Shown here piece after piece: positions 9,434 to 16,351 of a stretch of 37,655 nt of DNA. Origin of the DNA: Nocardioidaceae bacterium (GTDB taxonomy: Bacteria > Actinomycetota > Actinomycetes > Propionibacteriales > Nocardioidaceae); assembly GCA_029266455.1 (NCBI GenBank), contig JAQSWV010000028.1, forward strand, positions 1 through 37,655. Reading direction: 5' to 3'. The translations under genes and the position numbers were made by a program. Positions within the stretch are counted from its first letter, which is position 1. Each line of letters begins with the position of its first letter. The notes under the pieces were generated by a model. That model was not told the origin of the DNA. It saw only the letters and a list, made by a program, of their open reading frames with translations, and did no database searches.

Positions 9434-9506
9434 TCCCGTGTAGCTCAATCGGCAGAGCAGCCGGCTGTTAACCGGCAGGTTCCTGGTTCGAATCCAGGCG
9501 CGGGAG
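9434..9506 (+). tRNA. tRNA-Asn (anticodon GTT)
   Basis: A 73-base cloverleaf. The acceptor arm TCCCGTG pairs with CGCGGGA (one G-T pair), the D-arm is AGCTC...GAGC, the anticodon arm is CCGGC-TGTTAAC-CGG with GTT at 9467-9469, and the T-arm is CCTGG-TTCGAAT-CCAGG. The discriminator is G and no CCA is encoded. It forms the left border of a region rich in accessory genes. Confidence 0.97.
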
Positions 9507-9884
9507 CTGTAACGGTGCAGGTCAGGGGCCATTTCCAGGTACTCGCAACTGCCTCCGTGCCATTGACTTGCCACCCGGTCAAGAATTCGTCGAGCCGGTC
9601 GGTGACCACATGATCGTCGCCGCATGTGGGTGGCGGACGCACTTGCCCGTGTTGGCCACTACGTGCTGCACCAGGAGCCTCCTCGGCGGGTTGCGCCTCC
9701 GGGTGGAACCCCGCCGCGAGGACCATTCTGCGGCGTCGAGACCACCAGCGCCCGTCTGACACCTGTCCATGAGCGCGACCGGTGAGGACCCCTGGTCCGA
9801 GAAGCCGATGAACGCTGCCTTTGCAGCCCTGTCAACCGTGCCATGGACCGGGCAAGCATCGAGCAGACGTCCGGAAGGCATCTC
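9507..9884. other. Intergenic region after tRNA-Asn, no gene seen
   Basis: No open frame here has convincing coding character. GTGCCATTGAC at 9557-9567, followed ten bases on by GTCAA at 9578-9582, copies the left half of the ArsR operator at 10857. A purine-rich GGAAGG site at 9873-9878 serves the next gene. Confidence 0.5.
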
Positions 9885-10592
9885 ATGAGGCACAGAATCC
9901 CCACTGTCCTAGTGGCGGCGACCGCCGTGGTGGCGCTGCCGTCGACTGCATCTGCCGCCCTGGTGGCGGACTGGAAGATGGATGAGGAAGGCCCCGCTGA
10001 CGCTACCGTCGTGATGGAGGACTCGGCGGGAACCAATGACGGCACCACGCACAGCGTGATCACTGGAGTCCCGGGACTCGTTACTGGAAGTGCGCGGGCC
10101 TACCGGTTCGACGGAACCACGTCCTGGGTCGAGGTGCCTGACAGTCCGACACTGGATCCGGAGAGCGCGGACTTCGCGGTCAAGGCGACCGTTCACGTGG
10201 AGGACGGACAGATTCTCGACGACAGCTACGACGTCATTCGGAAGGGCGATACCAAGACGGCGGGTGGCTTCTGGAAGATGGAGATTCACCGCGTCGCCAG
10301 CAACACGACGGTCGGCAAGCTCCGCTGCGCGTACAAGGGCATCCTTCCCGATGGAACCCGGTCGTTGGCATCCAAGCAGGCGACCCCCGACATCGTTGAT
10401 GGCCGCACGCACACGCTGCAATGCAAGCGGATCGGCAACACCGTGAGCGCCGTCGTAGATGGGACGTCATACTCCCTGACGAAGTCGACCGGCAGAGTAG
10501 ACAACAACTCGATCGTGATGGTCGGCTCGAAGGTTGCAGGCGACGACGTGCTTCAGGGCGACATCGACGAAGTCAGTATCGATAAGGGTTGA
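9885..10592 (+). CDS. Secreted LamG/concanavalin A-like domain protein
   Basis: A 235-residue exported protein. The signal peptide is MRHRIPTVLVAATAVVALPSTASA, with cleavage expected after ASA near residue 24. The mature part is a single jelly-roll domain: LVADWKMDEEGP at the start, ARAYRFDGTTSWVEVPDSPTL (the LamG edge strand), DFAVKATVHVE, and QGDIDEVSI at the end, the typical closing strand of LamG domains. It probably binds a glycan or a wall polymer; no catalytic residues are evident and there is no membrane anchor. The start at ATG 9885 has GGAAGG six bases upstream; the frame is open from 9843. It is a lone gene between tRNA-Asn and the ArsR gene, so its partner is unknown. Confidence 0.82.
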   Translation: MRHRIPTVLVAATAVVALPSTASAALVADWKMDEEGPADATVVMEDSAGTNDGTTHSVITGVPGLVTGSARAYRFDGTTSWVEVPDSPTLDPESADFAVKATVHVEDGQILDDSYDVIRKGDTKTAGGFWKMEIHRVASNTTVGKLRCAYKGILPDGTRSLASKQATPDIVDGRTHTLQCKRIGNTVSAVVDGTSYSLTKSTGRVDNNSIVMVGSKVAGDDVLQGDIDEVSIDKG

Positions 10593-10856: not shown

Positions 10857-10888
10857 GTGCCATTGACAAAAAATCTTGTCAATGGCAC
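10857..10888. promoter_or_regulatory. Perfect 13-bp inverted-repeat operator upstream of arsR-type gene
   Basis: GTGCCATTGACAA at 10857-10869 and its exact reverse complement at 10876-10888 are separated by AAAATC. The left arm holds a perfect -35 hexamer TTGACA at 10863-10868; seventeen bases later CACGGT at 10886-10891 could be the -10, and it ends six bases before ATG 10898. A repressor bound here would cover both promoter elements. An autoregulatory site for the adjacent ArsR protein is the simplest reading. Confidence 0.8.
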
Positions 10889-10897
10889 GGTCGCAGC

Positions 10898-11476
10898 ATG
10901 CAGGACGTCGTGGTCATCGAAAGCGCGGAGGCAGCCGCCGCCGCGCTGGATCCGGTCCGGACCCGGCTGCTCGGCGAGTTGGCCGTTCCGGCCTCCGCCG
11001 CCGGGCTTTCCGCCCGAGTCGGCATCGCGCGCCAGAGAATCAACTACCATCTCAAGGCGCTCGAGGCGCACGGCCTGGTGGAGCTGTCCGAAGAACGGCG
11101 GCACGGGGGCATCACCGAGCGCGTTCTGCAGGCGTCGGCGGCGTCGTACGTCGTGTCGCCGGCGGCTGTCAGCGCGTCCGCGGCCGACCCAGACGCCAAC
11201 GCCGACCACCTCTCGGCGGGCTACCTCGTCGCGCTGGCCGGTCGGCTGGTGCGCGAGGTCGGCGCCTTGGCGCGCCGGGCCGGCGCGTCCGGCAAGCGCC
11301 TGCCGACGCTGACCATCGACACGCAGATCGGCTTCCGGTCGGCCGTGGACCGGGCTGCCTTCGCGGACGACCTGACCGCCGCGGTGCTCGACCTGGCCGC
11401 TCGCTATCACCACGACGACGGGCGCCCGCACCGGCTCGTCGTCGCCGCTCACCCCCTTCCTGAGGAGAACGTATGA
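10898..11476 (+). CDS. ArsR-family winged-helix transcriptional regulator
   Basis: A 192-residue helix-turn-helix protein. The wHTH spans about residues 15-85: ALDPVRTRLLGELAVPASAAGLSARVGIARQRINYHLKALEAHGLVELSEERRHGGITERVLQ, with recognition helix IARQRINYHLKALE. The C-terminal half (residues 90-192) has no metal-binding Cys or CxC motif, so it is not a classical metal sensor, and may sense a small molecule or act with its partner. It overlaps the next gene by four bases (ATGA), the common ArsR plus SRPBCC pair. ATG 10898 was chosen because the DNA upstream is the operator; the frame opens at 10775. The gene is likely autoregulated through the inverted repeat immediately before it. Confidence 0.9.
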   Translation: MQDVVVIESAEAAAAALDPVRTRLLGELAVPASAAGLSARVGIARQRINYHLKALEAHGLVELSEERRHGGITERVLQASAASYVVSPAAVSASAADPDANADHLSAGYLVALAGRLVREVGALARRAGASGKRLPTLTIDTQIGFRSAVDRAAFADDLTAAVLDLAARYHHDDGRPHRLVVAAHPLPEENV

Positions 11477-12264
11477 GCACGACCCCGAACGTCCCGTACC
11501 GCCTGGAGTTCAGCGTCGAGGTCCCGGGCACCCCGGAGCAGGTCTGGCACGCCATCGCCACGGCAAGGGGCATGAGCGCCTGGTTCCTGCCGACCGAGAT
11601 GGAAGAGCGCGAGGGCGGCTCCTTGCACTTCACCATGGGCCCCGAGATGGGCTCGGACGGCCATGTCACCGGCTGGGACCCGCCGCGCCGCCTCGTGTAC
11701 GAAGAGGACTGGGCCGCCCTCATGGGCAAGGATCCGGATGCGCTGAGCCCGCTGACCTCGGAGTTCCTCGTCGTGGCCAGGTCCGGCGGCACCTGCGTCG
11801 TGCGCGTCACCAGCAGTGGCTTCGGGACCGGCGCGGCCTGGGAGTCGGAGTTCTGGGACGAGATGGGGTCCGGCTGGATCCCGTTCTTCGACAACCTGCG
11901 CCTCTACCTGTCGCACTTCCCCGGTCAGGAGGCCACGCAGCTGGAGGTCACGGCCTCCCACCCGGGCGACGCCGAGACGCTCTGGTCCACACTGCACGAC
12001 GCCCTTGGTCTGGGCGACGAGGGCGCGATGGTCGAGGTGCGCGGCGCCACCGGCACGGTCGAGCGCGTCGGCGAACGGCAGACGCTGGTCCGGCTCACTG
12101 CGCCGGTGCCCGGGATGCTCAGCGTCTTCGCGTTCGGCGAGGGCGACGGCAAGGCGATGGCGGGCGTACGCGCCTACCTGTTCTCCGCCGACGCCGCAGA
12201 CTACGTACGGCGCGAGGAGCCTGCCTGGCAGGCCTGGCTGCAGGGGCTCATCGTCCCGGCCTGA
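11473..12264 (+). CDS. SRPBCC (AHSA1/START-like) domain protein
   Basis: A 263-residue protein translationally coupled to the ArsR gene. The first domain is a typical AHSA1-type SRPBCC fold: FSVEVPGTPEQVWHAIATARGMSAWFLPTEM, then VTGWDPPRRLVYEEDW, and ends with a C-terminal helix WDEMGSGWIPFFDNLRLYLSHF. A second, less clear half follows (TQLEVTASHPGDAETLWSTLHDALG...AGVRAYLFSADAADYVRREEPAWQAWLQGL), which may be a degenerate second SRPBCC copy. Such proteins bind hydrophobic ligands in a central cavity. ArsR-SRPBCC pairs are common in actinobacteria; the ligand and role are unknown here. No signal peptide is seen, so it acts in the cytosol. The ATG overlaps the previous stop codon, which supports the start. 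Confidence 0.88.
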   Translation: MSTTPNVPYRLEFSVEVPGTPEQVWHAIATARGMSAWFLPTEMEEREGGSLHFTMGPEMGSDGHVTGWDPPRRLVYEEDWAALMGKDPDALSPLTSEFLVVARSGGTCVVRVTSSGFGTGAAWESEFWDEMGSGWIPFFDNLRLYLSHFPGQEATQLEVTASHPGDAETLWSTLHDALGLGDEGAMVEVRGATGTVERVGERQTLVRLTAPVPGMLSVFAFGEGDGKAMAGVRAYLFSADAADYVRREEPAWQAWLQGLIVPA

Positions 12265-12381
12265 TCGTCTGCGCGCATCCGGTGCGGCGGGACCGCTGCT
12301 CCCCCCCGAGCCGTGAGAACCAGACCGGCGTACTGGCCCGCTCCCGGTGGTGGCGACGGCGCGCAGCCGGCATCGCCACTG

Positions 12382-15192: not shown

Positions 15193-15499
15193 CCGACTCC
15201 ACCTCGCGTCGATTCCTCACTTGTGGGTCCCCATCGCAGCCGGTCCGGCGGCGAAGGATCGGGATGGGTCGAACGGAGCGTTGGCGCACCGATCGGGGGC
15301 GGTCGGGCGTCGTCCGGAGTTCCGTCTTCATCGTTTGGTCACGTTGAGTGATCGCCTTCGAGAAGTCAGCGCAGCGCTGAACACGTCGCTTCCGTCCCAT
15401 CTTGGACCGGTTTAGCGGGCCAGATCACCCCTGCGGGGAGTGCACAGAGCGGATATCTCCGGTTTTGGTGTAACGCTGCGTAGCCATAGCGTCACGGGT
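15193..15499. other. 307-bp intergenic region carrying the RTX-gene promoter
   Basis: No gene is seen. Near its end TAGCGT at 15487-15492 lies seven bases before ATG 15500, and TTGGTG at 15465-15470 is a plausible -35 with a 16-base spacer. The rest shows no repeats or hairpins that I could identify. Confidence 0.5.
15487..15492 (+). promoter_or_regulatory. -10 box TAGCGT of the RTX gene, leaderless type
   Basis: TAGCGT lies seven bases before ATG 15500 and TTGGTG at 15465-15470 is a plausible -35. No Shine-Dalgarno site exists between them and the ATG, so the start codon is probably the first codon of the mRNA. Confidence 0.6.
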
Positions 15500-16351
15500 A
15501 TGGACATCCTCTCCCGCCGGACCACCCTTCGCTTGGTCGGAATGCCGACACTCGCCCTTCTCGCCGCGTCGGCCATGACCGCCGTGACCCTGGGAACTGC
15601 TGCAGGCGGCGAGCCGCCAGCGGGCGCCAACGCCGGCCCCCCCTACCCCTTCGTCACCGAGCTGATGGGCGAGCCGGGGACCGCGGAACCGCTCAAGAAC
15701 CAGGCCGTCATCGACAAGTCGCGGCACGGCTACCAGTTCCGCAGCGGCCAGCAGAACGGTCACCTCGTGGTGGCCCCCGTGAGCGGCGGGATCCGCTTCG
15801 CCGACAGGAACACCGAGGCGTGGAAGAAGCTGGCGCCAGCCTGCAACCGGCAGAAGGTGGCGGTGGGCGTCGCCGCAGTGTGCAAGGTGCCGGGCGGCGT
15901 CACCAAGAGCTCCCCGCTACTGGTCGAGATCTGGCCCAGGCTCGGCAACGACTTCACCGACGCCTCCGCCCTGCCTGCCACGGTCGCCGCGACCGTGCTG
16001 GGCGACAGGGGAAAGGACACCGCCTACTTCGGCGCAGGTGACGACTTCTTCAACGGGTTCACCGGTAACGACGTCGTCCGGGGCGGCGCCGGCAACGACT
16101 GGATCAGGTCGGGGGTCGACAGCGACAGGGTCAACGGCGGGCCCGGCAACGACGACGTCGTCGCCAAGGAGGGTCATGACACCGTGGGCGGCGGGCCCGG
16201 CAACGACCGGCTCTGGGGCGGCGACGGCGACGACGCGCTGAGGGGCGAGGATGGTGACGACTACCTCTTGTGCGGTAACGGCCGCGACAGCGCCATCCTC
16301 GACTCAGGCGAGCGCAGATTCCCCAACTGTGAGTCGGTCAGCTATCGCTGA
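15500..16351 (+). CDS. Secreted RTX (hemolysin-type calcium-binding repeat) protein
   Basis: A 283-residue exported protein. The signal peptide has a twin-arginine-like start, SRRTTLRLVG, and a long hydrophobic stretch to about residue 35. An N-terminal part (about residues 36-165) has few recognisable features and contains two cysteines (ACNRQ, VCKVPGG). The C-terminal part (DNA 15998-16314) has RTX nonapeptides that bind Ca2+: FFNGFTGND, GGAGNDWIR, GGPGNDDVV, GGPGNDRLWGGDGDDALRGEDGDDYLLCG. The protein is likely folded by calcium outside the cell. The two Cys near the end (LLCGNGRD, FPNCESV) may form a disulfide. No T1SS genes are nearby, which suits Sec/Tat export in a Gram-positive. The function of the N-terminal part is unknown. 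Confidence 0.9.
   Translation: MDILSRRTTLRLVGMPTLALLAASAMTAVTLGTAAGGEPPAGANAGPPYPFVTELMGEPGTAEPLKNQAVIDKSRHGYQFRSGQQNGHLVVAPVSGGIRFADRNTEAWKKLAPACNRQKVAVGVAAVCKVPGGVTKSSPLLVEIWPRLGNDFTDASALPATVAATVLGDRGKDTAYFGAGDDFFNGFTGNDVVRGGAGNDWIRSGVDSDRVNGGPGNDDVVAKEGHDTVGGGPGNDRLWGGDGDDALRGEDGDDYLLCGNGRDSAILDSGERRFPNCESVSYR

Follow-up and report, generated by a model that had tools for sequence, protein, structure and literature searches.

Pairs in which a gene for an ArsR-type protein adjoins a gene of COG3832 (AHSA1) were described by Makarova, Wolf and Koonin in 2009 as mobile two-gene modules whose ArsR proteins are without metal motifs, and antibiotic resistance (as the most plausible role) or stress response was proposed for them in the part of that survey dealing with these pairs (PMC2701414). 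A second close case is Rv2034 of Mycobacterium tuberculosis, an autorepressing ArsR-like protein that was insensitive to the metals tested, with a palindrome inside the protected region (approximately -30 to +8) and with a polyketide_cyc2 (SRPBCC-type) domain encoded in the next gene, which overlaps its own (PMC3338718). The layout of the locus described here is already known from the 2009 pairs, as that part of the survey presents them, and from Rv2034; what is added is the operator, the promoter and the boundary of the cassette. A search of open-licence papers found none on this operator, nor a relevant one on ArsR with SRPBCC.

In the window (the whole 37,655-nt stretch of Nocardioidaceae DNA that was analysed) an ArsR-type winged-helix gene adjoins an AHSA1-family gene on the same strand, and a perfect inverted repeat precedes the pair. 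The features are as follows, in positions of the window:

10857 to 10888, no strand: perfect inverted repeat with 13-bp arms and a 6-nt spacer
10862 to 10883, no strand: predicted ArsR dimer site, the operator core YTTGACAAN6TTGTCAAR (here ATTGACAAAAAATCTTGTCAAT), from 80/80 ortholog promoters and genome-wide pattern scans
10863 to 10868, forward strand: -35 hexamer TTGACA, coinciding with the left half-site, each position retained in at least 80 of the 81 promoters
10886 to 10891, forward strand: predicted -10 element CACGGT (nAnnnT), spacer 17 nt, starting 12 nt and ending 6 nt 5' of the ATG at 10898
10898 to 11476, forward strand: arsR gene for a 192-aa winged-helix (HTH_20) protein with neither Cys nor a metal motif, predicted leaderless
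11473 to 12264, forward strand: SRPBCC/AHSA1 gene, 263 aa, AHSA1 domain and second alpha-beta region, 4-nt overlap (ATGA) with arsR
10860 to 12281, forward strand: putative portable cassette, with nucleotide similarity to other genomes from the operator to just past the SRPBCC stop codon

The two arms of the repeat (10857-10869, GTGCCATTGACAA, and 10876-10888, TTGTCAATGGCAC) are 100% complementary across a spacer of 6 nt, the whole reading GTGCCATTGACAA-AAAATC-TTGTCAATGGCAC. This is the sole inverted repeat with arms of at least 13 and a spacer of at most 20 across the 37.7-kb window, and no such repeat occurred in 12 random windows matched to it in dinucleotide make-up. An earlier note had described a perfect 13-bp inverted repeat over a consensus -35 TTGACA, followed after 17 nt by a CACGGT ending six bases before the ATG, and this agrees with the coordinates, with TTGACA at 10863-10868 inside the left arm, CACGGT at 10886-10891 and the start codon at 10898. 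The same note had proposed a genome search for the repeat, and this found the inner 26-bp pattern once in the 3.43-Mb host genome and still once when 3 mismatches were tolerated; a second target in the host genome (at up to 3 mismatches) is unsupported, as there was one weak additional match (L083) and the reversed control gave more.

Eighty ortholog loci were fetched from many actinobacterial genera (regulator identity 57-96%), giving 81 promoters when the window is counted. Alignment on the site placed the palindrome YTTGACAAN6TTGTCAAR upstream of arsR in 80/80 fetched orthologs, with a distance of 35, 36 or 37 nt from the start of TTGACA to the start codon in every one of them, and the GTC of the right half-site was kept in all 81 promoters. 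Conservation fades approximately two bases beyond the core, pointing to a true operator of about 20-22 bp; the GTGCC/GGCAC bases that lengthen the arms in the window copy are a local extra. The exact 13-bp arms first taken to be the site were thus too long: the core TTGACAA-N6-TTGTCAA with about one flanking base per side stood, and the outer bases proved particular to this locus. The DNA further upstream of the operator is dissimilar between most loci. In distant homologs the operator has drifted, ending TTGTCGG or TTTTCGG; such drifted operators were seen upstream of L092, L093, L096, L100-L102 and L109-L111, several with an additional upstream half-site resembling CCGACAA or CCGAAAA.

The operator is predicted to cover the -35 element and the spacer of the arsR promoter. 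An nAnnnT -10 element followed TTGACA at a spacer of 17 in 55 and of 18 in 24 of the 81 promoters (79 of 81 together), compared to 0-4 of 81 at the other spacers tried, and at spacer 17 it begins 12-14 nt 5' of the start codon. The promoter went unreported in a generic sigma-70 scan, its -10 being a poor fit to TATAAT; the comparative test took the place of that scan, and the support for this predicted promoter is comparative. In leaderless bacterial genes a TANNNT signal stands approximately 12 nt 5' of the start codon, and leaderless genes make up more than a fifth of those in actinobacteria (PMC3160421). As the -10 element is placed 12-14 nt before the start codon, as in leaderless genes, the arsR-SRPBCC operon is predicted to be leaderless, with transcription expected to begin at the ATG itself.

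That TTGACA is a consensus -35, and that a single strand of the repeat is able to fold, could be read as merely a strong promoter with an RNA hairpin or terminator and no protein site at all. We find this hardly credible: the downstream half-site is conserved like the -35 half (GTC in 81/81), yet no promoter element requires it, and the repeat would lie outside the transcript if transcription starts at the ATG. The terminator or hairpin was also rejected on the lack of any terminator-like T-run 3' of the repeat and of conservation in the outer stem pairs.

Pattern searches were made without regard to genes, in approximately 430 actinobacterial genomes altogether and with the reversed pattern as control. 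The 14-base palindrome TTGACAANNNNNNTTGTCAA gave 19 sites in 395 genomes of the class (reversed control 0), 17 of which lay immediately 5' of arsR homologs (the window and 16 others); another (L125) precedes a RibD/dihydrofolate-reductase-like gene leading into an arsR-SRPBCC operon, and the last (L137), with a GC-rich spacer and no arsR nearby, was taken as chance and unrelated. For the 12-base palindrome TTGACANNNNNNNNTGTCAA there were 10 sites in 39 related genomes, again with none for the reversed control, nine of them preceding arsR homologs with identity down to approximately 40% and the tenth (L123, genome G431) preceding an SDR-type dehydrogenase gene at the same 35-nt distance to the ATG. 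Of 14 genomes carrying fetched loci, ten held a perfect site, one each and identical to the sequence of their own arsR operator, and the reversed control matched once in the 14.

Two of these neighbourhoods are recorded for themselves. The L123 site (approximately 1501, minus strand) is a perfect operator/promoter copy before the SDR-type gene and not before arsR, and is a candidate second member of the regulon. RibD_C/dihydrofolate-reductase-like genes lie between operator and arsR in L125 (G268) and just 3' of arsR in L126 (G715).

The palindrome overlaps the promoter of arsR itself, and autorepression through a promoter-overlapping operator, as first suggested by the layout, is strongly supported by the comparative evidence of operator and promoter conservation across orthologs together with the pattern searches. 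The repeat is very probably the docking site by which the repressor shuts off its own two-gene unit.

The regulator scores 39.3 bits against Pfam HTH_20 (cut-off 27), and is under the cut-offs of the direct ArsR models (HTH_5, NF033788), with 25 bits for NCBIfam HTH_metalloreg against a cut-off of 55. The first 80 or so residues of its structural model are confident and match ArsR-family structures, supporting an ArsR-like fold, and these are followed by its own C-terminal region of approximately 100 residues with pLDDT mostly 50-80. The matches include PH1932 (2cwe; Z 12.2, rmsd 4.5 A, 134 aligned) and CzrA (4ggg; Z 11.9, rmsd 4.9 A, 80 aligned). Cys is absent from 78 of 81 orthologs and neither a CxC/CxxC nor an SmtB-type alpha5 motif was found, so the absence of metal ligands asserted earlier is borne out; the regulator has neither the alpha3/alpha3N Cys nor the alpha5 Asp/His site of SmtB/ArsR metalloregulators. 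Anti-phage defence was also considered and rejected, as PADLOC matched only the winged helix of Csa3/CARF proteins and gave 0 matches for the SRPBCC protein.

The partner scores 47 bits against the AHSA1 profile (cut-off 22.1), and its confident model (pLDDT 94.8) shows the AHSA1 domain joined to a second alpha-beta region. Among the folds nearest to it are those of MLL2253, DynU16 and further AHSA1 proteins, in comparisons which barely cover the C-terminal region. The SRPBCC gene is directly 3' of arsR in 79/79 loci where the contig permits the test, mostly with the 4-nt ATGA overlap. In a few distant members the SRPBCC protein is without the C-terminal region (L074, L076, L077 and L079; 152-187 aa) or barely alike (L078, L080), and the operator is kept in all of these.

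This invariant pairing, with an overlap implying matched amounts of the two proteins, bears on whether SRPBCC is a co-sensor, contacting ArsR when loaded with ligand and lifting it off the operator. The SRPBCC fold is one with a ligand-binding cavity, and AHSA1-related domains have been reported within ArsR-family members (PMC2577659). Retention of the operator where SRPBCC is shortened or barely alike argues against a finely conserved contact between the proteins. ArsR also evolves more slowly than SRPBCC in the identity comparison below, and we regard a co-sensor as unlikely. The earlier note's proposal that SRPBCC may bind the ligand for the switch is one possibility among others: its gene invariably adjoins arsR and its fold is of a ligand-binding type, but it could just as well act as a detoxifying effector, and ArsR has a C-terminal region of its own. 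Rather unlikely too is a more extended reading, in which SRPBCC would be the ligand sensor that lifts ArsR and the cassette would in some hosts have taken further genes under its operator (the SDR dehydrogenase of G431/L123, the RibD-like reductase of G268/L125), forming small natural-product detoxification regulons.

The preferred reading, of an autorepressed and self-contained pair, also takes in how the pair is distributed. Similarity to most other carriers starts at 10858-10863 and stops near the SRPBCC stop, and no conserved third operon gene or neighbour widely common to carriers was found. Just upstream of the cassette, by eye, is a secreted-looking LamG/concanavalin-like ORF (window 9843-10592), with a tRNA-Asn (9434-9507) approximately 1.4 kb upstream; on the other side, an ORF at 15440-16351 has repeats resembling GGxGxDxxx calcium-binding motifs, again by eye. 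Of 198 genomes in the host family 22 carry the pair, and a species of the host genus, 98% complete, lacks it. Ten genome pairs were compared: amino acid identity is 92-96% for arsR (82-89% at fourfold sites), 82-94% for SRPBCC (71-82%) and 51-68% for dnaG, whose fourfold sites, at 42-51%, are near the random 41% and saturated. Silent-site identity of 71-89% between orders whose dnaG genes have reached saturation, with edges at the operator and the SRPBCC stop, is the signature of a 1.4-kb cassette that has probably spread horizontally across orders. G+C-rich codon bias does lift silent-site identity (the random expectation being 0.41), and the same values might come from unusual purifying selection on vertically inherited genes with no horizontal spread; this is quite improbable, given the low dnaG values (0.42-0.51) of the same genome pairs, the patchy carriage within the family with a near-complete sister species lacking the pair, and the differing genomic contexts of the carriers.

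No relative of the pair was found in phages, and those on plasmids were all under 60% identity. Such a patchy, mobile two-gene distribution might also suggest a toxin-antitoxin-like addiction pair autoregulated through the palindrome, with SRPBCC as the toxin, and COG3832/ArsR is named among candidate mobile pairs of this type in the relevant part of the 2009 survey (PMC2701414). The same authors judged antibiotic resistance more plausible there. With SRPBCC large (263 aa), without nuclease or other toxin signature in Pfam and without any toxin-family match in Pfam or NCBIfam, and with the pair absent from phages and only distantly related on plasmids, we consider an addiction pair very improbable.

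Considered jointly, it is highly likely, from comparison of sequences, that the repeat is the operator of an autorepressed, self-contained and horizontally spread ArsR-SRPBCC cassette. A dimer of the ArsR-type protein would bind TTGACAA-N6-TTGTCAA, whose left half coincides with the -35 hexamer and which takes up the spacer as far as the -10; bound there, it would block RNA polymerase and so repress the leaderless operon, closing a negative feedback loop around both genes. With a -10 as weak as CACGGT, ArsR might, on sequence alone, conceivably act as an activator. For the repressor, derepression would come from a non-metal signal, most likely an organic compound, which the C-terminal part of ArsR, the SRPBCC protein or both may sense, and SRPBCC might then bind, sequester or convert the inducing compound. 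This detoxification part, from the sensing of a signal to the handling of a compound by SRPBCC, is tentative and in our judgement slightly more doubtful than probable. The cassette belongs to a known type of metal-blind unit, spread among actinobacteria, with a proposed role in stress or detoxification. Pairs of ArsR and AHSA1 genes are widespread without having a settled function; a defined operator, promoter and boundary over many genera make the pair testable, and the operator pattern picks out further candidates for the regulon, the SDR gene of one genome among them, hinting at chemistry.

Compared to the described ArsR-COG3832 modules, the locus has the same stable, patchy and mobile adjacency of an ArsR-type HTH gene and an AHSA1/START gene, with metal motifs absent, and its branch has a 192-aa ArsR and a mostly 263-aa SRPBCC; the analysis here adds a predicted operator, a leaderless promoter and the edges of the cassette, none of which are given in the treatment of these pairs in the 2009 survey (PMC2701414). 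With Rv2034-Rv2035-Rv2036 it shares a metal-blind regulator, a palindrome overlapping the promoter of that regulator and an SRPBCC-type gene that overlaps the regulator gene, a likeness of layout, but the Rv2034 operator (CCGTAAGT-N4-ACTTACGG) is different, the operon there has a third gene, and Rv2034 is reported to act also on dosR and phoP (PMC3338718). The SmtB/ArsR metalloregulators (SmtB, CzrA, CadC) have the winged-helix fold and repression from a promoter-overlapping palindrome, predicted here also, whereas the window regulator has no metal-binding motifs and a longer C-terminal region. PH1932 and the Phr heat-shock regulator of Pyrococcus (1uly/2cwe, 2p4w) are the closest solved folds of similar length, but are archaeal with identity of about 18%. 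Finally, the SRPBCC protein has the helix-grip fold of DynU16/CalU16 and AHSA1 proteins (N-terminal domain against DynU16: Z 16.8, rmsd 2.3 A, 132 aligned), and DynU16 is also two-domain (PMC8488855), but identity is about 20%, no enediyne cluster was noted around the window locus, and a shared fold does not by itself establish function.
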